From a virus: a stretch of 22,323 nt of DNA. This document shows positions 1 to 21,348 of this stretch, in pieces (the stretch's first letter is position 1; each line of letters starts with the position of its first letter). The stretch spans positions 1 to 22,323 of the IMG/VR virus record IMGVR_UViG_3300017714_000197. One strand, given 5' to 3'. A model generated the notes under the pieces. It did not search any database and was not told where the DNA came from. It worked only from the letters and a program-made list of their open reading frames with translations. Made by a program: the position numbers and the translations under genes.

Positions 1-1
1 A

Positions 2-829
2 AAGGACCTCGGAACTTGGCAATCCACCCTGACAGATTTTAGATATTTGTCATCTTCGTGGAAGAAAAATTGTGAAGATGAAAGATTGCTCGGCGTTTCG
101 ATGACTGGCATCATGGACTGCGAACGCACCAACGGTAAAGATGCAGGACTTGAAAAATTACTTTGTGAATTGCGTCAAGAGGTGGTCGATGTGAATCGTG
201 AATATTCAAAAAATATTGGAATCGAACAATCCGTGGCAACCACTTGCGTGAAGCCCTCTGGAACTGTCTCACAACTCGTTGACGCGGCTTCTGGCATTCA
301 TGCGAGACACAATCCACATTACATTAGAACCGTTCGTGCGGACAATAAAGACCCTCTCTGTCAATTCATGAAAGACCAAGGTTTCCCACATGAAGCCTGT
401 GTCATGAAGCCAGAAAATGTCACCGTCTTCTCCTTCCCAGTGAAGGCTCCCGAAAATTCTGTTTTCAGAACCGATATGACGGCAATCGAACAATTAGAAC
501 TTTGGTTGAGTTATCAACTATTTTGGACAGAACACAAGCCATCAGTGACAATCACAGTCAAGGAAAATGAATGGTTTGAAGTTGGTGCATGGGTTTGGAA
601 AAATTTAGATAATATTTCAGGAATTTCATTCCTTCCACATTCGGATCACACCTATAAGCAGGCTCCATATCAGGACTGCACGGAGGAAGAATATGAAGAA
701 TTATTAGAAAAATTACCAAAAAGTACAAATTGGTCTTTATTGAAAAATTATGAACAGGAAGATAACACGGCAGGATCCCAAACAATGGCATGTTCTGGAG
801 ATTCCTGCGAAGTCGTAGATTTGTCTTGA
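2..829 (+). CDS. nrdJ: Adenosylcobalamin-dependent (class II) ribonucleotide reductase, C-terminal part
   Basis: Reduces ribonucleotides (probably triphosphates) to deoxyribonucleotides with a B12 cofactor, feeding phage DNA synthesis. The reading frame is open to the left edge (it reads K-D-L-G-T-W-Q-S-T-L-T before the first visible in-frame start), so the 5' part of the gene is outside the window. Family signatures seen are RLLGVSMTGIMD, TCVKPSGTVSQLVDAASGIH, a YIRTVRAD stretch, FSFPVKAPE, EHKPSVTI, GISFLPHSDHTY and a C-terminal CSGDSCEVVDLS containing the expected cysteine pair. These match the monomeric Lactobacillus leichmannii-type triphosphate reductase better than the dimeric NrdJ type. 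The stop codon lies inside the -35 box of the next promoter. Identification is secure; the exact subclass is inferred from motif similarity. Confidence 0.95.
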   Translation, partial: KDLGTWQSTLTDFRYLSSSWKKNCEDERLLGVSMTGIMDCERTNGKDAGLEKLLCELRQEVVDVNREYSKNIGIEQSVATTCVKPSGTVSQLVDAASGIHARHNPHYIRTVRADNKDPLCQFMKDQGFPHEACVMKPENVTVFSFPVKAPENSVFRTDMTAIEQLELWLSYQLFWTEHKPSVTITVKENEWFEVGAWVWKNLDNISGISFLPHSDHTYKQAPYQDCTEEEYEELLEKLPKSTNWSLLKNYEQEDNTAGSQTMACSGDSCEVVDLS

Positions 830-854
830 CAGACGGTATACATACGACTACAAT
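826..854 (+). promoter_or_regulatory. Sigma70-like promoter for the 64-aa protein/porin unit
   Basis: TTGACA and TACAAT are separated by exactly 17 bp. The first ATG with a ribosome binding site is 53 bp downstream. The -35 box overlaps the TGA stop of the reductase gene. Near-consensus boxes suggest recognition by the host housekeeping RNA polymerase. Confidence 0.75.
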
Positions 855-907
855 TTTGATGTCAAACCATCTGACTTTTAGATGGAGCCTAACATAAGGA
901 GAATTAT

Positions 908-1102
908 ATGGCTACTAAGACACCTAACGAATGCCCTACATCGTGTAGTGGCGGTTGCATTTGCAGGTTCCTCTCGCGGATTGGGCTTTGTCGCTCAACC
1001 CTCGTGACCCTTGCCCTCGTCCCTTTCGCATGGGATGGCGTTGAATGGTTCGTCAATTCGATCCGTTCACTCTTCGATCTCGTTTCTGGAGTCGGAGGCT
1101 AA
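908..1102 (+). CDS. Small cysteine-rich membrane protein, unknown
   Basis: 64 residues, not recognised. The start is fixed by AAGGAG six bases upstream of ATG. The N-terminal 30 residues hold five cysteines (9, 13, 17, 19 and 28), followed by a single hydrophobic segment at about residues 30-44 and a short C-terminal tail. It lies one base from the porin gene and shares its promoter, so the two are presumably co-translated. It could be a partner or maturation factor for the barrel, or a small inner-membrane protein; nothing in the sequence decides. Confidence 0.7.
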   Translation: MATKTPNECPTSCSGGCICRFLSRIGLCRSTLVTLALVPFAWDGVEWFVNSIRSLFDLVSGVGG

Positions 1103-1103
1103 T

Positions 1104-1874
1104 ATGGCTTTTGCAAGTGTACTGTGTCTTTCTGCTATTGCCGCAGCAGGAGATATTGAGTTTAGCGGCGTTGGACAAACTGTTGTGACATCTATTGATG
1201 GTGTCGAGACTTTGGATACTCGGTTGTTGCTTGGTGCATACGGCGAATCCAAGGGTGCTGTTTATGGTTTCGCTTTTGAAACCAATGCCGATCTCGACGA
1301 TGCAACACTTTGGGAAGCCTATGTTGGTGCTGATCTCGGTGGTCTTGATGTCACCGTTGGTCGTTTCCAGCGTAACTTTAGTGCTGAACTCGCAATGTCC
1401 GATTACACCTACGGTCTTGGTCTTACCAACTCCAGTGTTTTCGGGCGGAACGGCGTTGTCGTTGACGGCGTGTCGTTCGGAGGAAACGTCGGTGACGCTT
1501 CCTTCTCTTTGGACATCATTGGAGATGATGTCTTTGATGGAGACTCCGTGACTTACGGTGGTCGTGTTGAACTTGGAGCATTGGGCTTCGGTTTCGTCGG
1601 TGAAGATGCGGAAATTTGGACTGTTGACATCTCTGGTGATGACGGTTTCATTTCCTATACCGATGACAATGGCGAATGGGTCGCCGTTGCACAAGGAGTT
1701 TTGTTTACCATTGAAGATACCTTCTCTGGTTATGGTCGTGTCGAATACGATCATCTTGACGAAACCACATTCGCCGTTGGCGGCGTGTGTGAATTCCAAG
1801 AGGGCGTTGCTGCTCTCGTTGAATATGATGATCGGGACGAAGGAATTCGTGCCGGTTTGAGATTCACCTTCTAA
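1104..1874 (+). CDS. Porin-like outer-membrane beta-barrel protein
   Basis: 256 residues, starting at an ATG preceded by CGGAGG. A short hydrophobic leader (MAFASVLCLSAIAAA) ends with an A-A-A signal-peptidase-like site before GDIEFSG. The rest alternates polar and hydrophobic residues in many short strands with Gly and aromatic residues, including GADLGGLDVTVGRFQ, which is typical of porin strands, and it ends in R-F-T-F, the C-terminal Phe that the Bam machinery recognises. It is strongly acidic. I infer a barrel of about 12-16 strands in the host outer membrane. It has its own promoter and terminator, like a moron. The known precedent is the Lc porin of lambdoid phage PA-2, which replaces host porins and blocks superinfection. 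A virion role cannot be excluded. Confidence 0.75.
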   Translation: MAFASVLCLSAIAAAGDIEFSGVGQTVVTSIDGVETLDTRLLLGAYGESKGAVYGFAFETNADLDDATLWEAYVGADLGGLDVTVGRFQRNFSAELAMSDYTYGLGLTNSSVFGRNGVVVDGVSFGGNVGDASFSLDIIGDDVFDGDSVTYGGRVELGALGFGFVGEDAEIWTVDISGDDGFISYTDDNGEWVAVAQGVLFTIEDTFSGYGRVEYDHLDETTFAVGGVCEFQEGVAALVEYDDRDEGIRAGLRFTF

Positions 1875-1895
1875 AAAAGGTTTGCTTATGTAGAG

Positions 1896-1924
1896 AACAG
1901 CCCATCGAAAGGTGGGCTGTTTTC
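1896..1924 (+). terminator. Rho-independent terminator after the porin gene
   Basis: AACAGCCCA and TGGGCTGTT form a perfect 9-bp stem around an 8-base loop, ending in TTTTC. It is 22 bases after the porin stop and closes the unit that begins with the promoter at 826. Confidence 0.85.
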
Positions 1925-1938
1925 GCATACATACTTGT

Positions 1939-2229
1939 ATGGGATTCAATAGAGAACTGATTGACGAAGAATTTGAAGCGTTGCTCAAGCAAGACACCTT
2001 TAGCGGTGATTTTGATTTTGGGTTTGCGGACGAAGTTGAGGTATCTGAAGTTTCTGGTGCAGCAAATGATGCGAAAGAACAGTTGGACAAACTTGAAAAG
2101 TTGATCCTACCAATTCTTTATAATCTAAAAAAGAATCCAGAGAAAGATTATATTGTGTGGGATGGTGCGAAAAGATCTGCTGCATGTGAAGCACAAATTC
2201 AAAGGATTCTCGAAATCACAAGGTTATGA
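1939..2229 (+). CDS. Acidic protein of unknown function
   Basis: 96 residues, not recognised. The N-terminal half is acidic (FNRELIDEEFEALLKQ, then D-F-D-F-G-F-A-D-E). The C-terminal half is predicted helical (KEQLDKLEKLILPILYNLKK) and ends near RSAACEAQIQRILEITRL. No Shine-Dalgarno sequence precedes the chosen ATG, which lies only 15 bases after the porin terminator, so the transcript may start very close by or reach it by read-through. Its TGA overlaps the next ATG by four bases, indicating translational coupling with the resolvase operon. Confidence 0.65.
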   Translation: MGFNRELIDEEFEALLKQDTFSGDFDFGFADEVEVSEVSGAANDAKEQLDKLEKLILPILYNLKKNPEKDYIVWDGAKRSAACEAQIQRILEITRL

Positions 2230-2459
2230 AGGTAAGAAAGTTTTTAGTTGATATGTGGAATGGAAGAACGCAACAAGAATTAGAAAGTTATATCTCAGAT
2301 GTATGGAACGGTCGCACCGGAGTAGGGGATGCGGTCAAGATAATGATCGACACCGCATCGAAAGGTAAGATCAAACAATGTGGAGGCTGCATAAAACGAC
2401 AGCAATATTTGAATGAACTCTTCTCAAAATCAAAAAAGAATATCAATAGCCGGGATTGA
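2226..2459 (+). CDS. Small CxxC protein with internal heptad repeat, unknown
   Basis: 77 residues, ATGA-coupled to the gene before it and overlapping the resolvase gene by 47 bases. It contains a near-repeat, DMWNGRT at residues 9-15 and DVWNGRT at 25-31. Near the C-terminus is CGGCIKRQQYLNELF, a C-x2-C followed by a basic helix, which may bind zinc or pair with a protein. Similar short CGGC(K/R)-type proteins occur in marine phages as far as I recall, without a known function. Confidence 0.65.
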   Translation: MKVRKFLVDMWNGRTQQELESYISDVWNGRTGVGDAVKIMIDTASKGKIKQCGGCIKRQQYLNELFSKSKKNINSRD

Positions 2460-3006
2460 TTACTCGCTCAACGGACCTTGTGTTTGTGTATTTTGTGGGG
2501 ACGATAAGTTCTCATACAAACAATGTTCTTTTTATTATTTGACAAATACAAAAAACGTAACTGGAGTTTTCAAGTATCGATTCCACGGTGAACTTTTCAA
2601 CGAATTCAATCATGAGTGTCAACGATATGATTCGATCTCTGATTGGGCAGTTGATAAAGTTTTAGGTTGTAACTATGTTGGTCTAGAAGGATACGCATAC
2701 GGAGCCTCGGGTCGTGCCATATTTCAGATTGCAGAGAACTGTGGACTTCTCAAATATAAACTATGGGAAGCCGGTATCACAGTCGATGTGATCGCACCTA
2801 CAAAAATAAAAAAAGAAGCAACGGGAAAAGGCAACTCTGACAAGCGTAAAATGGTTGATGCTTTCCACCTAGACACGGGTGTAGATTTACAGAAACTTAT
2901 AACGCCAAAACGGGCAACCATAGGGTCACCCGTTTCAGACATTGCTGATGCTTATTTTATTTGCAAGTCTGCTTACGAGGCTTACGCAAAAATTCAAACC
3001 AGATAA
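2413..3006 (+). CDS. RuvC-like Holliday junction resolvase/nuclease
   Basis: 197 residues. It probably cleaves branched DNA before packaging, the job done by endonuclease VII (gp49) in T4. RuvC-fold signatures are in order: I-A-G-I-D16-Y-S-L-N-G (first catalytic Asp on strand 1), VGLE92GYAYG (second acid), a basic segment PTKIKKEATGKGNSDKRKM at about 130-147 that matches the RuvC K..tGkG..K motif, and the final acids in SD176IAD179AYF. It overlaps the preceding gene by 47 bases and is the last plus-strand gene. Convergence with the minus strand follows after 12 bases. Fold assignment is strong; substrate is inferred. Confidence 0.85.
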   Translation: MNSSQNQKRISIAGIDYSLNGPCVCVFCGDDKFSYKQCSFYYLTNTKNVTGVFKYRFHGELFNEFNHECQRYDSISDWAVDKVLGCNYVGLEGYAYGASGRAIFQIAENCGLLKYKLWEAGITVDVIAPTKIKKEATGKGNSDKRKMVDAFHLDTGVDLQKLITPKRATIGSPVSDIADAYFICKSAYEAYAKIQTR

Positions 3007-3018
3007 GATAACCCGAGA

Positions 3019-3273
3019 CTACGAGGGCAATAGCCCATCCAAATATAGCCACGGGTCCGAAACTTTTTTTGAGGCATTTTCCTCCATACGCTGGTAGGTG
3101 TCAACTCCAAGAGCATCACCTGCACCAAGTAGACCAACCGTTTCGATTTGTGTTGCAGAGTCAAGTGTGTGGTAAGTGTAAGGCTCACCGTTTTCATCAA
3201 CAGTGACGAATGGCTCTTTTACACTTTGCACGCTTGAACATCCAATGAGAAAAAGAATCGCCAAATATCTCAT
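3019..3273 (-). CDS. Small predicted lipoprotein, possible o-spanin
   Basis: 84 residues. The N-terminus MRYLAILFLIGCSS is a lipoprotein signal with a lipobox L-I-G-C; Cys12 would be lipidated. The remainder is polar, with no repeat or recognised domain. The start overlaps the stop of the upstream membrane protein gene by four bases (ATGA). A small membrane protein followed by a small lipoprotein, downstream of a holin-like gene, recalls an i-spanin/o-spanin pair, but there is no sequence match to known spanins. Confidence 0.7.
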   Translation of the reverse strand: MRYLAILFLIGCSSVQSVKEPFVTVDENGEPYTYHTLDSATQIETVGLLGAGDALGVDTYQRMEENASKKVSDPWLYLDGLLPS

Positions 3274-3509
3274 CGAGGAACTCTTTCCTTTGGTGTCTCC
3301 GTTCGCTGCATATGCTCACGAAGTTTTTTTCGCCTCTCTCTTTTTTCAAGTAGTACAGGCTTCCCGACTTCTTTCAATAATCTATCGTGGACACGATGTT
3401 CAACTTCTATAACTGCGTACTTGTATCCACCGGCAAAGCCAATCACTACACCCAAAATAAAGATACAAACTCTTTTCAAAATAATACATTCATGCTTACA
3501 ATCGCTCAT
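3270..3509 (-). CDS. Single-pass membrane protein, possible i-spanin
   Basis: 79 residues. One hydrophobic segment at about residues 14-31 (CIFILGVVIGFAGGYKYAV) is followed by a charged, helical, Arg/Lys/Glu-rich tail that might form a coiled coil. It is coupled by four-base overlaps to both neighbours, the SNase gene upstream and the lipoprotein gene downstream. The heavy positive charge of the tail fits a cytoplasmic tail as well as a periplasmic spanin arm, so the spanin idea is tentative. Confidence 0.65.
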   Translation of the reverse strand: MSDCKHECIILKRVCIFILGVVIGFAGGYKYAVIEVEHRVHDRLLKEVGKPVLLEKRERRKKLREHMQRTETPKERVPR

Positions 3510-3943
3510 GTGATTCCCCTTATTTCTCTAAGTTCTTGGAAGTCTTTTTTCTTGGTTCCACCATCGTATTCCCAAGCATAACCTTCCTGAATCATTCGCT
3601 CATTGATTGATTCGGTTTCGTCACCGATATACAGCCAACCAAGAAGCCTACCATATTTGCCCACACCGCCATCAAGTTCGGTGCGAATTACTAAATCATC
3701 TTCACCAGAAATTGCACCATCAAGTTCTCCTGTCAACCAATCGGTTGCATCTTGACCGAGTTTCTTTTCTTCAAGATCCCGTGTTCTCTTTTCGGGAGTA
3801 TCAACACCTGCGATACGAACACGTTCCTTTTTATAAAGATCAAAACCCAAGTCGATGATGACATCGATGGTATCACCGTCAAGAACTTTGACGATTTCGG
3901 TAACTCTAAAGTTATAGCACGACTTTCTATTTGGTGGTATCAT
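3506..3943 (-). CDS. Staphylococcal-nuclease-like (SNase) thermonuclease
   Basis: 145 residues. Calcium-dependent sugar-nonspecific nuclease fold. Seen: VLDGDTIDVIIDLG with D22/D24, RVRIAGVDTPE with Arg43 and D48-T-P-E51, and GKYGRLLGWLY with Arg99, corresponding to the catalytic Arg35/Glu43/Arg87 set of the staphylococcal enzyme. Also INERMIQEGYAWEY, a family-typical segment. No signal peptide is present, so it acts in the cytoplasm or leaves with lysis. Such nucleases are common in cyanophages and other marine phages and may degrade host DNA for nucleotide recycling. It lies between a holin-like gene and small membrane protein genes, with an ATGA overlap downstream. Confidence 0.9.
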   Translation of the reverse strand: MIPPNRKSCYNFRVTEIVKVLDGDTIDVIIDLGFDLYKKERVRIAGVDTPEKRTRDLEEKKLGQDATDWLTGELDGAISGEDDLVIRTELDGGVGKYGRLLGWLYIGDETESINERMIQEGYAWEYDGGTKKKDFQELREIRGIT

Positions 3944-3950
3944 TTACTTT

Positions 3951-4397
3951 TTACTTTCCTCTGACTGCGGTTCCGAAGTAGAATCCAACGATGGTAACGA
4001 GAATCTGCCTATTTTCTTCTGTGTATAGGTAACCCTCGACCGGGGTATAAGTTCTTACCTTTTCCTCACCGAACAAACCGAGCAAGTCCCATGGCTTGTA
4101 GACGGTTTGTTCATGCTCGACCACGGTGGTTACACCGTCGCTGAATGCAATAATAAACGGAGCGATGATAGTGCCAAACATAATACAAAGCACGATGAAT
4201 CGACGAACCAGTTTACCTGCGTCAATTGATACACGGCCTACGGCAGCATTCGCATGTTCGTTTTCTTTTTCGGCTGTACCCATCGCCATCTTCCATCGCT
4301 CTTGCTCTTGGGCACGACGTTCAGCCATTGCTTTGAATAGGAATCCTGTCGCCGATCCTGCCATCAGCGAAAGAAAATCAGGTGATAAAAAATCCAT
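3951..4397 (-). CDS. Holin-like membrane protein (3-TM type)
   Basis: 148 residues with three hydrophobic segments: about 8-24, 67-86 (FIVLCIMFGTIIAPFIIAF) and 131-146 (ILVTIVGFYFGTAVRG). A charged helical linker follows the first. The spacing and the closing V-G-F-Y-F-G-T-A-x-R motif resemble the three-TM holin family known from gene transfer agents and marine phages, which make inner-membrane lesions for lysis. The start has AGGAG nine bases upstream. No endolysin gene is visible in this window, so the lysis role rests on topology and motif only. Confidence 0.55.
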   Translation of the reverse strand: MDFLSPDFLSLMAGSATGFLFKAMAERRAQEQERWKMAMGTAEKENEHANAAVGRVSIDAGKLVRRFIVLCIMFGTIIAPFIIAFSDGVTTVVEHEQTVYKPWDLLGLFGEEKVRTYTPVEGYLYTEENRQILVTIVGFYFGTAVRGK

Positions 4398-6844: not shown

Positions 6845-9800
6845 CTATTTTGTTCTGCGATTGAAATAAGTAGAGGCCATATCGTTGAATTGTCCGGGTG
6901 TCATGGAACGATACATTAGCGTTCGTTCGGGTGTACCCTCTAGTTGACCTCGATGAGTCTCTTCTTCAGTTCTTTTCTTTTTCTTTGCCATGTTTGTAGC
7001 AGTTCCAAAGATGACATCTTTATAATTTTTACCATATCGACTTTTGAAATCTGCTGTCGCATCCTTTTTGAGATCCTCAGCGTACTTATCTCTCAGTTGC
7101 ATTTCTTTCTTTGTAAGAGTTGCCTCCGAGAGTTTTTCGGTTTTGATAAATGTCTTACCCGGATCAACAATGATTCCAAATTCTTTCATAAATGGTACGC
7201 CAACCAAAACTGGTGTACCTTTTTCTGACCGATCATCCAGAGTAAATCGACGGTTTGGATACTTTTTGCCCATAAATTCAATATCAAGTTCAATCATTGG
7301 ACGCTGTTCAACGTCATGTGCGATTGCACCTTGCAGCACAGTCAAGATATCGACAACTTTATTTGTGAATTTCTTGCCGCCATGGGTCCATGTCACCGTG
7401 TCCCCATCGATTTGATATTCATCTGCATGGATTGAGTTTACCACCATGTTTCCAGTGTCGAATTTACCGACCAAAGGTCCAATGCCCTCTACACTCATGG
7501 TTTCTCTTCTTCCGACTACGGTTGGTGAATACATCCAATTGTCCTTATCTAAGATGTGGTCGATAAAGTCTCCCACAATGTTCTGTTTTGTTGCCATCTC
7601 GATTCCCTCGGAACCGGGAGAGGAGTTTACCTCAATTATGTAAGGTTTCTTTGTTTTTGCAGAGACAGCAATATCAACACCGCAGTAATAGCAGCCAATT
7701 GTCTTTGCTGCTTTTAGTGCTAACTCTTCAATTTCTTTACTAATTGAAACTTTTTTGATCTTTGCACCCATTGAGAAGTTGCTTCTAAAGTCATTCTTGA
7801 CTTTTCCTCGATTCATCACACCAACAACCTCACCGTCAAGAACAATGATTCTCATATCACTCTTCATATCAATATATTCTTGAAGAATAATCTCTTCTGA
7901 TTCATCAATTTTCTGAATTGCATCAATAACAGACTTGAGAGATGGCTTACTATCAATAATAAAGACACCCTGACCCTTTGATCCTGTAAGTGTCTTCGCA
8001 ACAACAGGGAATTTCCCGCCAACTTGCTTATGAAGATCTTCGATCATTTCTGGATCAGTGACAAGTGCGGTTCGTGGGGTCGGCAGACCTACTTCCGTAA
8101 GCGTTACGGCAGTGCGATACTTGTCTGAACAGATTTCAATCGAATCTCTTGAGTTGATAACGAAGAATCCGTCTTTTTCGAAGGACGAAATCATGTCAAG
8201 GGTTCCACTCTGTGCAGATGCAGCACCACGGACAATCACAACGGTATCAAATCTATTTGCAATAAACTCTTTTCCGTCTTTGTTTACAACAGTTCGAGTT
8301 CCGTCTTCATTTTTGAAAGATCGTGCGAAAGGAACGAAGGCGACAAAGCAAGGAACGTTTCTTTTTTTACATTCCTCTTTGAGTCTTTTAGCGGTCTTCA
8401 TCAAATTGCTATCGTTCTCTTCGCTGTATCCAGAGAAAATCAAAACTTTGACTGGCTTGCTTGCCTTTCGTTCTTCGTTCATCTCTTTTGTTTTCTTTTT
8501 CATCTGTTCGATAAACTTACGATACACAGCAGCCTCCGCAGTTTTCTTCATCACCTTGGCTCGTTGCTCCATCGCAATCGCAGCCTGAATCTTGTGTGCG
8601 TGCGTTCGGTCAGACGACTTGATTTTACGAACCGATGCCTCAGCCGTTTCTACGTCCTTGAAACCAAGTCCGTGGATTGTGCCTTTTGGATCTTCATCGG
8701 TGTAGAGATCAGAATGAGTATCGGGGTCTTGGTTCTTGCGTGTTTTAGCAATGCGGTTTGCTTCCATAAACTCACGGAACATCGACATCGTGCGACCGAT
8801 TTCAGTTTGCTTGTCACCCGGCTTGCGACCCTTGATAATATTTTGAATGCCAGTCTTTTCAAGATTGCCATACAAGTCAGTCAGCACATCCCCATATCGT
8901 CCGAGTCTGTAATGTTGCAAACTAACATTCGTTTTGGGCTTCATCGTGAGCGGTGTTTCTTCGTCAATCAACTGCAAGACTTTTCGTAGTTCTTTATCAT
9001 TTCCCGAAGTGCTGTATTTTTTTGCTCCCGAAATCTCACCATATTCACCTTCTACAAAACGAACCCAGCCTTTTTCCATTGCCATAAAATCAACGAGGTT
9101 GTCAACATCTCGTATTCCCCGTTTGATTTCATTGAAGTGTCCATCTGCCGCCGATTCTGGGTCATTTCTGTTACTATACTTCTCCACCAAGCGTTCTTTG
9201 ATTTTCTTTTCAGTAAGACCAAAGAATCTTGGATCTTTCACAACCATCTGAATGTGATATGGAGTATGTCCCTGAATGATTCTTGTCTTTCCAGTTTTCG
9301 GATTCACCCAACCTTTGTAGCCCGGAATGTTGACTTCATCGAGTTCCACCTCTTCACGAACACCCATTGCCTTACGAAGATCATCAAAAAGTTTTCGTGC
9401 CTGTGCATCTGTTGCCTTCGACGGCACACCAGTCTTGAATGTTTCAAAATCTCCCTCTGTCGCAGCGGCTCTCATTTTTGACGCAGACATACCAGAAACA
9501 TCTTTTGCGTCTGGGTCGCGTCTACCGGCACTTACAACCTCAAATGAGTCGAGATCAAATGATTTATCTGGATCTGGGTGATTGACATAAGGACGAATCG
9601 TCTTATCGAATTCTTCTACACGATCACCACCGACAACAACAGTAATATTTTTGTAACCTTCGTCTGCCAAATATCCGATAGCATCAAATATTGTGCGGAT
9701 TGAAGGATTATACATAACATTGGCGTTCCTAAAGAACGTTTTCATATAATTTGTTTTAGTTTTTGAATCTAGAGGGTTCTTTCGTTTGTCTTTGCTGTGA

Positions 9801-9982
9801 CTCGCAAAGATAAAATTCGTAGAGCCTCTTTTTTTTGCCTCTTTCAGAACCTTGTTTACCAAAAGTTCATGACCGGAAGTGGGTGGGTTGAAGCGTCCAA
9901 AGGTAAGAACAGCACTTTTACCCTTCCGCTCTTCACGTAGTGATACATCATCATTCACGCCATCATTATAGAATGGTTCCAT
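6845..9982 (-). CDS. Four-part fusion: nucleotidyltransferase, phage helical region, RimK-like ATP-grasp ligase, RimB-like retropepsin
   Basis: 1045 residues; start fixed by GGAGG nine bases before ATG. Residues 23-190: cytidylyltransferase/NMNAT-like fold, with FNPPT35-S-G-H38 (HxGH type) and V-S-G-M-S-A-S-K-M-R171 matching the ISSTxxR motif. Residues 215-510: charged helical region including HAHKIQAAIAMEQRAK. Residues 512-815: RimK-type ATP-grasp, with VVAKTLTGSKGQGV, the LQEYIDMKSDMR stretch, GVDIAV and metal-binding E784-V-N786. Residues 824-948: RimB-like retropepsin (ATP-dependent Zn protease family), with GRRE, K-F-D842-T-G-N, S-I-H-A-D-E and PVLVGVPFMKEFGIIVD. The tail is basic (MAKKKKR). 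RimK adds glutamates to proteins and RimB removes or remodels such tails in bacteria. L15-R-E17-E18 is a possible prohead protease site, so the protein may be packaged and even processed (inference). Confidence 0.88.
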   Translation of the reverse strand: MEPFYNDGVNDDVSLREERKGKSAVLTFGRFNPPTSGHELLVNKVLKEAKKRGSTNFIFASHSKDKRKNPLDSKTKTNYMKTFFRNANVMYNPSIRTIFDAIGYLADEGYKNITVVVGGDRVEEFDKTIRPYVNHPDPDKSFDLDSFEVVSAGRRDPDAKDVSGMSASKMRAAATEGDFETFKTGVPSKATDAQARKLFDDLRKAMGVREEVELDEVNIPGYKGWVNPKTGKTRIIQGHTPYHIQMVVKDPRFFGLTEKKIKERLVEKYSNRNDPESAADGHFNEIKRGIRDVDNLVDFMAMEKGWVRFVEGEYGEISGAKKYSTSGNDKELRKVLQLIDEETPLTMKPKTNVSLQHYRLGRYGDVLTDLYGNLEKTGIQNIIKGRKPGDKQTEIGRTMSMFREFMEANRIAKTRKNQDPDTHSDLYTDEDPKGTIHGLGFKDVETAEASVRKIKSSDRTHAHKIQAAIAMEQRAKVMKKTAEAAVYRKFIEQMKKKTKEMNEERKASKPVKVLIFSGYSEENDSNLMKTAKRLKEECKKRNVPCFVAFVPFARSFKNEDGTRTVVNKDGKEFIANRFDTVVIVRGAASAQSGTLDMISSFEKDGFFVINSRDSIEICSDKYRTAVTLTEVGLPTPRTALVTDPEMIEDLHKQVGGKFPVVAKTLTGSKGQGVFIIDSKPSLKSVIDAIQKIDESEEIILQEYIDMKSDMRIIVLDGEVVGVMNRGKVKNDFRSNFSMGAKIKKVSISKEIEELALKAAKTIGCYYCGVDIAVSAKTKKPYIIEVNSSPGSEGIEMATKQNIVGDFIDHILDKDNWMYSPTVVGRRETMSVEGIGPLVGKFDTGNMVVNSIHADEYQIDGDTVTWTHGGKKFTNKVVDILTVLQGAIAHDVEQRPMIELDIEFMGKKYPNRRFTLDDRSEKGTPVLVGVPFMKEFGIIVDPGKTFIKTEKLSEATLTKKEMQLRDKYAEDLKKDATADFKSRYGKNYKDVIFGTATNMAKKKKRTEEETHRGQLEGTPERTLMYRSMTPGQFNDMASTYFNRRTK

Positions 9983-13922: not shown

Positions 13923-13929
13923 TATTTAG
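13923..13929 (-). promoter_or_regulatory. CTAAATA box overlapping the PEP-CTERM-like gene's stop
   Basis: Reads ACTAAATAC on the minus strand. The TAA inside the box is the stop codon of the PEP-CTERM-like gene. A transcript from it would begin almost at the next ATG, so it is either a leaderless late promoter or chance. Confidence 0.3.
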
Positions 13930-14564
13930 TAGCGTCTTCTTCTACCACCCATGAGAATGCCCAAACCACCCAAGGCAACGGACGCAGGAGCAGGAACGGG
14001 AACCGTTTCTAAGTCCGGCATCAACGATTCAAATATCGTAGCAGTTCCATCACCTTGAAGAACTCCGGGGGACGTAGTATATTCGTCTGCCCAAGCGAGA
14101 ATCCAAACCGTTGCTGTCTCTCCGGGGGCTAAAGAACTCGTAGTTGTATCGTCCGAAAAGCCCCAGTCCCATGAGAACAGACCTGTCTCGTAACCAAAAT
14201 TTACATAGTCCGGGGCATTGTAAAAAGGATCTATTTGTTCTTGAATGGGTGTTTCTATAAAGTATCCCGGCATCACAAGAGAAGCGATTTCGGATGTGCT
14301 TTCCCCAACGTAGATGTCGAGGTCTTCGATGTTCAGCATTGACTCCCAACTGTTTTCAACAGTGATTGTCACCAGCATCGCACCTTCGGGAAGACCTACG
14401 ACATCTTGTTGTTCGGGTTCGGTATAAACTGCGGAGGAAACAGTGGCAGAGAAGAATCCATCTTCATCCTGCGACCAAACTTCGTACTCCATAAACGCTG
14501 TCGGATCACCGGCAATATCGCCAAATGCAGCCGTAGTAATAAGTAACGCTAATGGTCTAATCAT
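13926..14564 (-). CDS. Secreted protein with PEP-CTERM-like sorting tail
   Basis: 212 residues. It has a short signal peptide (MIRPLALLITTAAFG), a beta-rich acidic body (SAVYTEPE, LVTITVEN, DLDIYVGE, ETATVWILAW), and a C-terminus reading V-P-x-P191-A-P193, then ASVALGGLGILMGG, then RRRRY. This PAP/hydrophobic/poly-Arg layout is the variant of PEP-CTERM seen in many Phycisphaerae. In bacteria such tails are recognised by an exosortase; no exosortase is in the window, so the host enzyme would be needed. AAGGG precedes the ATG and a CTAAATA box lies 46 bases upstream. It is probably a surface-exposed late product of host origin. Confidence 0.78.
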   Translation of the reverse strand: MIRPLALLITTAAFGDIAGDPTAFMEYEVWSQDEDGFFSATVSSAVYTEPEQQDVVGLPEGAMLVTITVENSWESMLNIEDLDIYVGESTSEIASLVMPGYFIETPIQEQIDPFYNAPDYVNFGYETGLFSWDWGFSDDTTTSSLAPGETATVWILAWADEYTTSPGVLQGDGTATIFESLMPDLETVPVPAPASVALGGLGILMGGRRRRY

Positions 14565-14610
14565 ACAGAAACCCTTTTTGTAAAAGTTGTCCGAAGTATT
14601 CGAACAGATT

Positions 14611-14617
14611 TATTTAG
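14611..14617 (-). promoter_or_regulatory. Late-promoter-like box CTAAATA before the PEP-CTERM-like gene
   Basis: Reads CCTAAATAAA on the minus strand; its TAA is the stop codon of the 278-residue dockerin-like gene. The ATG of the PEP-CTERM-like gene is 46 bases away, with its own ribosome binding site. Confidence 0.5.
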
Positions 14618-15450
14618 GAATTTGAATTTCCCCAAGCCGCAAGAATTTTCAGAATTGCATCGAACACATCGTCATATCTTTCTGCGTCATTCAGAACCAT
14701 CAGTAAGTCTCCAAAATCAACTCTGTCGTCGTAGTTCAAGTCTTCCCAGATTGTGGACTGGGTAGCATCTCCGAAGTAACCGATGGTTTCGTAATAATTC
14801 CAGTGTGGCAAACCGTCATACTTGTTCAGGTTTACACCACCCTTGAATCTTACATTTCCCTTTGTGGTAAGTTGCATAAAAGGATTCTCACCGATCTTTG
14901 CATTTTGAGCATTTGAATTTACGACAACAATAAGTCTTGACAATGTAAAAATATCATTGTTTTCACCCAAGATCAGATTGTTGGTTTGGTTCAGTCGGTA
15001 TGGAGTTGCAACACCGGCACAGGGGTAGTTGTCACCAAGACCGGGAACACCGACACAATCGGGAAGTTCACCCATTGGAAAGTGTGAATCAAAATCCTGT
15101 CGTGGATCTTGTCCCAAGAAGTAGCGAAGCGGACCCGATGGTGTTTGCTCTGCGGTGGACCAAGTGTCTCCCCACGGAACATCGCTCGGGTGATTGTTCC
15201 AGAATCCTTCCTCGGAAGTTGTCACAAGAATAAACGGTGTTTGAGTTGCGATTCTCGCACCGAGTCCAGAGTAACCAGCATTCAGTGGCAAAATACAAGT
15301 CGGTGTTTCCGCATCAATAAAGAAACGATATGTGTTTCCGTATGGAGTCATACGACCCATATTTTGAATACGAAGTCCGGTGGTACAATCCTCACCCGGA
15401 TCATTGTCATCACCAAGAGCAATAGCAGCAGATAAAATCAAATCAATCAT
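14614..15450 (-). CDS. Secreted dockerin-like protein B
   Basis: 278 residues. A very short leader (MIDLILSAAIALG) ends before DDNDPGED. After it comes M-G-R-M-T-P-Y-G-N-T-Y, shared with the upstream paralogue. The C-terminus (about 236-274) has E-D-L-N-Y-D-D-R-V-D-F-G-D-L-L, a calcium-binding dockerin/EF-hand-like loop, then a second helix ending LKILAAWGN. That is the planctomycete-style dockerin layout, with the terminal cysteine missing. A cysteine-containing body suggests export to an oxidising compartment. GGGGA lies seven bases before ATG, and the start overlaps the end of the upstream paralogue by eight bases. Its binding partner (a cohesin) is not in the window. Confidence 0.75.
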   Translation of the reverse strand: MIDLILSAAIALGDDNDPGEDCTTGLRIQNMGRMTPYGNTYRFFIDAETPTCILPLNAGYSGLGARIATQTPFILVTTSEEGFWNNHPSDVPWGDTWSTAEQTPSGPLRYFLGQDPRQDFDSHFPMGELPDCVGVPGLGDNYPCAGVATPYRLNQTNNLILGENNDIFTLSRLIVVVNSNAQNAKIGENPFMQLTTKGNVRFKGGVNLNKYDGLPHWNYYETIGYFGDATQSTIWEDLNYDDRVDFGDLLMVLNDAERYDDVFDAILKILAAWGNSNS

Positions 15451-16537
15451 TACAATTTCCCCATTCAGATAAAACTTTCAATACGGCAGAGAAGCCGTTA
15501 TTTGTTTGTGGATGATACTTACTCGCAGCAACATCCCCTAAAACTTGCAACAAATCTTGAAATCCAACTGTGCCATCTTCGTTGAGATCAGATGGGCAAG
15601 AATTGTCAGCATAGTAGTCTACAAAGTATGGGGCACGGTCGCAAGGATAACCTTGATTACACGCAAAACGAATCACTCCACCACTTCCGAAGTAGTCAGG
15701 ACCAGTAAATCGTGCAATGTGATATGAACCGGGATGCTTTTCGCTCGACCAGTCTACATCAGTGCCACGCCACATAATCAAATCACCGTAATCATTCTGA
15801 CCGGGAGAAGAGCAACAGACTTGCCCAACAATGGTGTCAAGAGGTGTCCAGAACTTGATTACTCTATTGAGTGAATAGTGTGGTGTTATGAGATCGGCGT
15901 GTTGTTGCTGTACTTGTGGGTATTTGGGAGTACCGAACGCACCATACTTCTTACCGGGTTCTCCGTGAAGAATCCAAGAGTCACACCAGAAGTATTCTAG
16001 ATTCGTCAGATCAAATGTGTTCGGAATACCACCGGGTGCATCCCAATTGACTGGGGTATAGTTCTGTCCAAGATACATCCAGCGTTGGTAGGGATTGGAC
16101 TGAATGCAATCCCAATACGTGCCGGGAATGTCGCAGGACACAACCGTTCCATCGTCTTGCTCCCAAGTTTCAAACGTGGTGTATCCCTGCCAATATTCAA
16201 TACATTCGGGACAATTCTCAAGGAATGGGTAAGTGGCATCGTTGCGGTTCTTGAAAACATCCCCTTCAATATTCCACGCAAACGCACGAGTAGGAATCTC
16301 GCTTCCACGAGTAGACCCAATCATATACGGGGGACGGGAACTACCATCAGGCTGGGAGAACTCGGGGTCAAACCCTGTCTGAATGTAAACGTCGAACGTC
16401 CGACCAAACGGAGTGAGTCTACCAAGATCGTCAATCCACATTTCAACCGTGTCGGGATTGGTTGGTTTGCCGCCGTTATCACCAGCAAAACTAAAAGAAG
16501 AAAGTGCGAAAACTACAAGAGTACAAAAATGCTTCAT
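15443..16537 (-). CDS. Secreted dockerin-like protein A
   Basis: 364 residues. I take MKHFCTLVVFALSSFSFA as start and signal peptide because GGAGG is eight bases upstream; the earlier in-frame ATG overlaps that site. The body is rich in Trp, Tyr and Cys (about ten Cys), with L-G-R-L-T-P-F-G-R-T-F near residue 38, shared with the downstream paralogue. C314-P-S-D-L-N-E-D-G-T-V-G-F-Q-D-L-L is a dockerin type I-like calcium loop, and the protein ends L-K-V-L-S-E-W-G-N-C, as planctomycete dockerins do. It has a late-type box 19 bases upstream and is first in the dockerin/PEP-CTERM operon. It could be a virion surface or exported host-interaction protein; catalytic motifs are absent. Confidence 0.8.
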   Translation of the reverse strand: MKHFCTLVVFALSSFSFAGDNGGKPTNPDTVEMWIDDLGRLTPFGRTFDVYIQTGFDPEFSQPDGSSRPPYMIGSTRGSEIPTRAFAWNIEGDVFKNRNDATYPFLENCPECIEYWQGYTTFETWEQDDGTVVSCDIPGTYWDCIQSNPYQRWMYLGQNYTPVNWDAPGGIPNTFDLTNLEYFWCDSWILHGEPGKKYGAFGTPKYPQVQQQHADLITPHYSLNRVIKFWTPLDTIVGQVCCSSPGQNDYGDLIMWRGTDVDWSSEKHPGSYHIARFTGPDYFGSGGVIRFACNQGYPCDRAPYFVDYYADNSCPSDLNEDGTVGFQDLLQVLGDVAASKYHPQTNNGFSAVLKVLSEWGNCND

Positions 16538-16556
16538 TACAAAGACCTCCATAATT

Positions 16557-16630: not shown

Positions 16631-17026
16631 TTATTGAATTTGGATTTCCTTTGGTTTCTTTTCTTCAGGTACAATCTTGTGAACATTTACAGAAAGAATT
16701 CCGTCTTCACAATATGCTCCCGTGACGTTCCAATCCTCGGTGAGAGGAAGTCGCGTGCGGAACTTTCGGCGAGCGATTCCTCGATGCTCGAACATCTTCT
16801 CTTCCGTAGATTCACGATCAGAAGCAACTTCCAAAACCTTGTAATTCTGAGGGTGGGGGATAACAGTAATTGATAAATCATTTTTCTTATATCCTGCCAG
16901 TGCAAACTCAATGGTTGCGTTTTCTTCGTCGTGACGAATAATGTTGTATGACGGGAAATTCATATTCTTTTCTAATCCCCGTTCAATTTCAGTAATATGA
17001 TCCCAAAAATTTTCAATACTCAGCAT
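16631..17026 (-). CDS. Small heat-shock protein (Hsp20/IbpA-like)
   Basis: 131 residues, typical length for the family. It holds unfolded proteins in an ATP-independent way. Seen: FPSYNIIRHDEENATIEFAL opening the alpha-crystallin domain, then AGYKKNDLSITV, F-E-H-R-G-I-A-R-R-K-F-R-T-R-L-P-L, and GILSVNVHKIVPEEKKPKEIQI with the C-terminal I-x-I motif (I-Q-I). AAGGAG precedes the ATG. A CTAAATA box is 58 bases upstream and a strong terminator follows, so it may be its own transcript. Hsp20 genes are widespread in T4-like marine phages, presumably aiding capsid or tail folding. Confidence 0.92.
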   Translation of the reverse strand: MLSIENFWDHITEIERGLEKNMNFPSYNIIRHDEENATIEFALAGYKKNDLSITVIPHPQNYKVLEVASDRESTEEKMFEHRGIARRKFRTRLPLTEDWNVTGAYCEDGILSVNVHKIVPEEKKPKEIQIQ

Positions 17027-17806: not shown

Positions 17807-18035
17807 TTGTTTCTTCTCCAAGAAATACTAAGTTTTCATGTTCCCATTGTTCATATGAGATATTTGCATCAATAACTTCGGAGTCTTTGCTTTCAACAAA
17901 CTCCATCCACGCTTCTTCTTCGTCACGCGAAGAGGAATACCATTCGTGGGTTTCTTTGATAAACTTTGTATCACGATCATCATAGAATTCTAATTCAATC
18001 GTAACATCTGCACGCCATTTGTAATCATCAGCCAT
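17799..18035 (-). CDS. Small acidic protein, unknown
   Basis: 78 residues from MADDYKWRADVTIELEFYDD. An in-frame ATG 24 bases earlier (MNQSEINS) is possible, but its ribosome binding site is weaker. It is acidic and aromatic, with SSSRDEEEAWMEFVES and SYEQWEHENLVFLGEE. No known domain. It overlaps both neighbouring genes by eight bases, in a chain of coupled small genes. Confidence 0.65.
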   Translation of the reverse strand: MADDYKWRADVTIELEFYDDRDTKFIKETHEWYSSSRDEEEAWMEFVESKDSEVIDANISYEQWEHENLVFLGEETNG

Positions 18036-19081: not shown

Positions 19082-19108
19082 AATAATAAACTCCTTTTTG
19101 TTTATAAA

Positions 19109-19182
19109 CAGTCGCGGCAGGACTCGAACCTGCAATCTACGGATTAGAAGTCCGTTGCATTATCCAATTATGCTACGCGACC
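19109..19182 (-). tRNA. tRNA-Arg (anticodon UCU)
   Basis: 74 nt with a complete cloverleaf: acceptor GGTCGCG/CGCGACT (one G-U), D-stem GCAT/ATGC, anticodon stem ACGGA/TCCGT with loop CTTCTAA, and T-stem GCAGG/CCTGC with loop TTCGAGT; discriminator G. No CCA is encoded. It reads AGA, a codon likely rare in a GC-rich host but frequent in this phage. It sits inside the minus-strand small-gene array, so it is presumably cut from a polycistronic transcript. Confidence 0.95.
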
Positions 19183-19187
19183 AATTT

Positions 19188-21033: not shown

Positions 21034-21348
21034 TTACTTTGCAGCGACTTTTGAGAAGACTCCCAAAACCGATGTTGCCTTCATGAGCATGTAATCGCCC
21101 AAAGGAACATATGCTTCTTCCATAAAATAAATTTTACATCCGGGCTTGATTCTTGCATTTTCTTTTGTAAAAACTTCATCATCACCAACGGCAATGACGG
21201 TTCCGGTTTGACGGTTTTGTTCTTTGGCAAACCAGATCCCAGCGTCGGTCTTCTCCTCGCCAGTATCGCGTTTCAACAAAATGCGATCACCCGTGGGTTG
21301 AAGCATTGCATAATCTTCTGCGGTAATATCAATTTTCTTTGGTGGCAT
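21034..21348 (-). CDS. groES: GroES-like co-chaperonin
   Basis: 104 residues. L-Q-P-T-G-D-R-I-L-L-K-R opens the GroES domain. The mobile-loop region E-E-K-T-D-A-G-I-W-F corresponds to E-x-K-S-A-G-G-I-V-L of GroES, with I-W-F replacing the I-V-L tripeptide that touches GroEL. T-G-T-V-I-A-V-G-D-D and I-K-P-G-C-K-I-Y-F complete the barrel. It would cap host GroEL to fold phage proteins, as gp31 does in T4. AAGGA is nine bases before ATG, and it overlaps the upstream gene by 20 bases. Confidence 0.88.
   Translation of the reverse strand: MPPKKIDITAEDYAMLQPTGDRILLKRDTGEEKTDAGIWFAKEQNRQTGTVIAVGDDEVFTKENARIKPGCKIYFMEEAYVPLGDYMLMKATSVLGVFSKVAAK

Follow-up and report, generated by a model that had tools for sequence, protein, structure and literature searches.

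A promoter-to-terminator unit at positions 826-1924 of a 22.3-kb viral fragment from IMG/VR, the whole of which (22,323 nucleotides) is called the window here, probably represents a phage-encoded, host-directed outer-membrane porin operon that alters the permeability of the infected cell for solutes. The unit comprises a gene for a small Cys-rich membrane protein and a gene whose product is strongly supported, by profile comparisons and structure modelling, as a 16-stranded outer-membrane porin with a closed barrel and loop L3 in the pore. The following features were assigned in and around the unit:

2-829, + strand: 3′ end of nrdJ, class II ribonucleotide reductase, upstream flank (PHROG 367, E 1.9e-71)
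826-854, + strand: sigma70-type promoter TTGACA-17-TACAAT (11/12 match; equivalents in relatives)
867-885, + strand: leader hairpin in the 5′-UTR (MFE -8.5 kcal/mol, z -2.4)
896-901, + strand: Shine-Dalgarno sequence AAGGAG of the small gene (from sequence; AGGAG in nearly all of 72 relatives)
908-1102, + strand: small gene, Cys-rich single-TM membrane protein of 64 aa (profile matches; always the first gene of the unit)
1094-1098, + strand: Shine-Dalgarno sequence GGAGG of the porin gene, within the end of the small gene (from sequence)
1104-1874, + strand: outer-membrane porin of 256 aa, 16 predicted strands, C-terminal F (sequence, profiles, AlphaFold model)
1299-1508, + strand: two-allele segment, porin residues 66-135 (strand 4, L3 eyelet, strand 6); the window carries allele A
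1371-1457, + strand: predicted constriction loop L3, residues 90-118, with helix 94-98 (AlphaFold model)
1893-1924, + strand: intrinsic-terminator-like hairpin, 14-bp stem, GAAA loop, short U-tract (-25 kcal/mol, z -8.0)
2413-3006, + strand: RuvC-like resolvase, downstream flank (PHROG 159, E 1.3e-29)

Organization of the unit and its leader RNA

The original prediction described a self-contained unit between a reductase and a resolvase gene, consisting of a near-consensus sigma70 promoter, a small Cys-rich membrane protein gene, an outer-membrane barrel gene ending in R-F-T-F, and a terminator, and this layout was recovered in the window and, with equivalent promoters and hairpins, across related loci. 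The window nrdJ shares 60-66% identity with nrdJ of roseophages and of HMO-2011, and two small ORFs separate the unit from the downstream RuvC-like gene. The promoter is the top-scoring match within positions 1-4000, and its -35 box overlaps the nrdJ stop codon (827-829). When 72 non-redundant related loci were scanned in the same way, a promoter matching at 10-12 of 12 positions was found 5′ of the small gene in 55 of the 61 loci where this gene does not abut nrdJ, and in none of the 11 loci where it starts 20-32 nt past nrdJ. Thus, the promoter is real, albeit not universal. The 11 promoterless loci are probably transcribed by read-through from nrdJ.

At the 3′ end, the terminator had been predicted with a 9-bp stem; the hairpin is present, its stem is longer than claimed and its U-tract short. 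Terminator-like hairpins of differing sequence follow the porin gene in 57 of 68 related loci, compared with 3 of 680 shuffles, and 57 is a lower bound because the script misses the window's own hairpin, whose stem runs into the U-tract.

The small protein contains five Cys residues and one hydrophobic segment, and gave no matches in Pfam, PHROG or NCBIfam. According to profile matches, its gene lies directly 5′ of the porin gene in every locus that a contig start does not truncate. In the window, the porin ATG (1104) starts 1 nt after the small-gene stop codon (1100-1102), and the Shine-Dalgarno sequence of the porin is embedded in the 3′-terminal part of the small gene, so that the two genes are likely to be translationally coupled. 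One further copy of the small gene, in locus L057 (4959-5177), stands behind a 12/12 promoter and has no porin; the small protein might thus act, or be mobilized, independently of the porin. In L065 (3787-4008), the small gene looks split across two frames (73- and 50-aa pieces) and may be frameshifted.

The 5′ leader of the window has one hairpin, while phages with larger porins at this locus have a structured leader RNA of 110-134 nt with four to five tandem hairpins (located in L060:4860-5003, L083:3502-3641, L107:2024-2166 and L103:3484-3622). Over the leaders of 51 relatives, the median folding z-score was -3.3, and GGAG was placed within a hairpin loop in 28 of them, compared with 32 of 1020 shuffles. 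The dyad GTCnCTAnATAAGnGAC was found only in these leaders, and an Rfam search with the leader gave no family. From the full leader alignment, RNAalifold recovered only two of the hairpins since the subgroups differ in register. The leader could be a regulatory leader or an operator.

Fold, homology and variation of the porin

The porin ORF ends in LRFTF, and all relatives end in F. Residues 1-15 resemble a signal peptide by eye, being hydrophobic and ending AAA|GD; it is atypical, as the n-region carries no basic residues in the window and in most close relatives. The ORF is kept open in relatives down to about 70% identity with a median dN/dS of 0.12 (91 pairs), which indicates that the gene is under purifying selection.

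On its own, the window porin gave no matches in Pfam, PHROGs, NCBIfam or PDB sequence searches, and neither Porin_O_P (PF07396, curated cut-off) nor Porin_4 (PF13609) matched it; its close relative L038 matched Porin_O_P with E 0.0013, below the cut-off. Larger sister porins from the same locus do pass the Pfam cut-offs (Porin_4 with E 1.1e-12 and 1.7e-7; Porin_O_P with 6.6e-7), among them the porin of L060, which meets the Porin_O_P cut-off. PDB porin sequences gave no match by phmmer or by profile, while the sister porins match Porin_4. The window-family profile aligned to the larger phage porins over about 208 columns with a score of 65.9 when L061/L062 were included as bridging sequences and 47.4 when they were omitted; as controls, 60 column shuffles scored no higher than 26.4, and reversal gave 17.4. 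By these profile scores, the window porin is homologous to the larger porins of the Porin_O_P/Porin_4 type which many marine T4-type phages carry at this locus.

Structure modelling, which the original prediction had named as a check of the barrel, yielded no usable fold from the single sequence with AlphaFold2 (pLDDT 31). With a 59-sequence alignment of proteins derived from the loci, a 16-stranded porin was obtained (pLDDT 87.6, pTM 0.80), in which L3 is a 29-residue in-folded loop after strand 5 with a short helix (residues 94-98). Foldseek matched the model to the R. blastica porin and OmpU at E of about 2e-10 to 3e-10, and VIA-align gave Z 21-22 over 230-245 residues to PorB, OmpU, OprP and OprO. 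Fold and homology evidence are not fully independent, as the fold alignment includes the larger porins. The predicted architecture, with 16 strands, L3 folded inwards after strand 5 and a C-terminal F, is that of the 16-stranded porins PorB, OmpU, OmpF and OprP/OprO. The window porin differs from the solved porins by its mature chain of 241 residues compared with 289-426, by outer loops of 2-10 residues, by an identity of about 15% and by being phage-encoded. With 45 acidic and 10 basic residues, the mature protein has a net charge of -35.

Except for the in-folded L3, all predicted outer loops are in this range of 2-10 residues, and the larger sister porins have longer loops L4, L5, L7 and L8. 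Among 14 close relatives, mean entropy was lowest in the outer loops (0.32), reached 0.44 in the strands, and was highest in L3 (0.90), where the barrel varies most. The segment comprising residues 66-135 exists as two alleles, which are 47-53% identical in amino acids within the segment compared with about 74-86% on either side. Allele B has 5-6 Lys/Arg and 2-4 His in this segment, whereas allele A has 2-3 Lys/Arg and no His. In the pairs L030/L014, L010/L015 and L017/L021, the DNA is 93-97% identical at the nrdJ end and 78-98% in the small gene, and the pore segment only 53-62%; in some pairs the nrdJ 3′ region is 92-97% identical in DNA and the porin eyelet 53-62%. The opposite pattern was found with diverged nrdJ genes (66-77% DNA identity), where the porins are often 80-94% identical. 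Because nrdJ and porin identities are uncoupled, the porin moves between phage backbones, and the comparison indicates that it is exchanged independently of nrdJ. As to the predicted moron layout, the unit's own promoter and terminator and this independent exchange agree with it, whereas the missing promoter in the 11 abutting loci does not.

Carrier phages, neighbouring genes and host

Scans of IMG/VR detected the barrel in 25 contigs and the small gene likewise in 25, mostly the same contigs. Via the small gene, more distant phages were reached in which this position is occupied by larger proteins of 341-386 aa, and a scan with these proteins yielded 72 loci. Altogether, the pair of small gene and porin recurs in about 100 IMG/VR contigs with two porin size classes. 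In the flanks examined, nrdJ is located upstream in most loci and ruvC downstream in many. All four records of more than 100 kb (102-142 kb) encode a T4-type gp23, which marks these phages as T4-type myoviruses; judging from their gene content, the carrier phages appear to be T4-type and lytic-looking. The isolates in INPHARED contained no relative of the window barrel, and the larger porins had just one weak hit there, to an unannotated faecal phage.

The porin terminator of nine allele-B loci is directly followed by a gene coding for a membrane protein of 314 aa whose PiT-type motifs are duplicated. The gene is found upstream of nrdJ in three further loci, L013 (allele B) and L102 and L122 (both with larger porins), and among the larger-porin records searched PiT was present in two only. 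The protein shares its duplicated motifs with the PiT/PHO4 family and its profile matches the solved phosphate transporter TmPiT (6l85; E 1e-5), but it is below the Pfam PHO4 cut-off. Scanning whole records, PiT was found in 5 of 5 records with the basic allele B and in 0 of 8 with the acidic allele A, the window fragment being one of the latter. This contrast spans nrdJ backbones that are 96-99% identical in protein (L030/L014, L008/L015, L017/L021). Since the records are fragmentary and the genes linked, this association does not prove that the two act together; physical linkage alone could make PiT and the basic allele travel jointly. In the L037 contig (G018:C1:17030-17891), the PiT match comes in two pieces, split at 17815/17820 by a frameshift or through misassembly. 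In L030 (2822-4423), the place that PiT occupies in sister phages, downstream of the porin terminator and before ruvC, is taken by a gene for a 533-aa secreted-looking protein with a C-terminus that is dockerin-like by eye, so this slot holds exchangeable cargo.

The porin itself points to a diderm host. The planctomycete-type host of the original prediction did not find support: PEP-CTERM and dockerin models gave no match above the cut-off in any of 17 related records, and two pattern scans of GTDB contigs, covering chosen motifs only, revealed no cellular relative.

Elsewhere in the window, all on the minus strand, a 1045-aa fusion protein (6845-9982) combines an N-terminal cytidylyltransferase (PHROG 3041, E 2e-56) with a central ATP-grasp/RimK-like domain (PHROG 2599, E 7e-23). 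The region 13926-16552 encodes three proteins predicted to be secreted; a PEP-CTERM-like tail in one of them scored below the cut-off, and two have ends that are dockerin-like by eye. It is followed by an Hsp20 small heat-shock protein (16631-17026, E 8e-13), a tRNA-Arg (19108-19183) and a GroES-like co-chaperonin (21034-21348, E 8e-10).

Possible role of the porin during infection

We favour a role of the unit in solute permeability. A host-type RNA polymerase would transcribe it early in infection, the Cys-rich protein would enter the inner membrane, and the porin would be exported via Sec and then inserted by BAM. The new pores would widen or retune the permeability of the outer membrane for small solutes during phage DNA synthesis, a timing suggested by the adjoining ribonucleotide reductase gene. 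In the sister group with the basic allele, the phage PiT-like transporter in the inner membrane would pass solutes on, most likely phosphate. The strongly acidic barrel of the window, unlike the phosphate-selective OprP/OprO, counts against phosphate, and due to this charge and the lack of PiT on the fragment, the solute of the window lineage is more likely cationic or non-specific. More tentatively, porin and transporter might form an exchangeable two-membrane import line in which the constriction cassette suits the cargo, the basic cassette together with phage PiT serving phosphate import, and the window porin might be among the smallest natural 16-stranded pores.

The original prediction had instead drawn on the Lc porin of phage PA-2 (Lc/NmpC), likewise a phage-encoded porin carried as a moron: here, the phage porin would replace or dilute the host receptor porin so that related phages cannot adsorb. 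We regard such superinfection exclusion as the main competitor, though a rather improbable one. The promoter and terminator of the unit and the horizontal exchange between phages fit it, and a barrel that has shed its extracellular loops could act as a substitute pore without receptor activity. An arms race about receptor blocking would, however, predict variable outer loops and a conserved pore, and the reverse was found, the extracellular loops being the least variable part; this weakens the idea of Lc-like replacement. Furthermore, sister phages carry a phosphate transporter next to the porin, a fresh porin would have to displace pre-existing receptors inside one infection, and the carriers look like lytic T4-type phages (gp23, nrdJ), unlike the temperate PA-2. 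With tiny, conserved outer loops, variation in the pore and a transporter as neighbour, solute uptake is favoured over exclusion.

Pairing with a small single-TM protein is also seen in some lysis cassettes and would fit a virion- or tail-associated beta-barrel, or an outer-membrane protein of the lysis stage, in place of a physiological porin. This we consider unlikely: the gene is placed between nrdJ and ruvC outside any structural or lysis block, the N-terminus is signal-peptide-like and the C-terminal F of the BAM type, and a full 16-stranded porin with an L3 eyelet is predicted. Also, the promoter is of the sigma70 type and the late-type motif TATAAATA is almost absent upstream (2/128), so that gene order and promoter type alike make a virion protein unlikely. 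Even less probable is a neutral hitch-hiker, i.e. a host porin captured without selection. It would agree with the linkage to variable cargo between porin terminator and ruvC, but not with the dN/dS of 0.12, with a locus conserved in about 100 contigs and both size classes, or with the conserved promoter and terminator.

PA-2 Lc is a close relative of enterobacterial porins. The window porin, in contrast, is diverged, had no cellular relatives in the motif scans of GTDB contigs, and belongs to a type that T4-type phages carry in a conserved operon, next to PiT in sister phages. A few annotated phage porins are present in BFVD. In marine viral contigs, an OmpL porin was described beside glnK-amtB with a predicted promoter and terminator (PMC8115048). 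Like the unit studied here, it is a marine viral porin with promoter and terminator which adjoins a nutrient transporter (here in sister phages), but the transporter family and the locus are different, and OmpL is derived from Flavobacteriales. With this viral OmpL, the BFVD entries and PA-2 Lc as precedents, phage porins, also in marine viral contigs, are not new, which weakens the novelty claimed originally.

If a conserved phage operon remodels the host's outer membrane during infection, the control of permeability would itself be a phage trait, while the known auxiliary genes of phages mostly encode enzymes or inner-membrane and periplasmic parts. The uptake of phosphate or other solutes by infected marine cells through phage-made pores thereby becomes testable, and the unit would offer a 16-stranded porin of very small size whose selectivity segment varies naturally between alleles.
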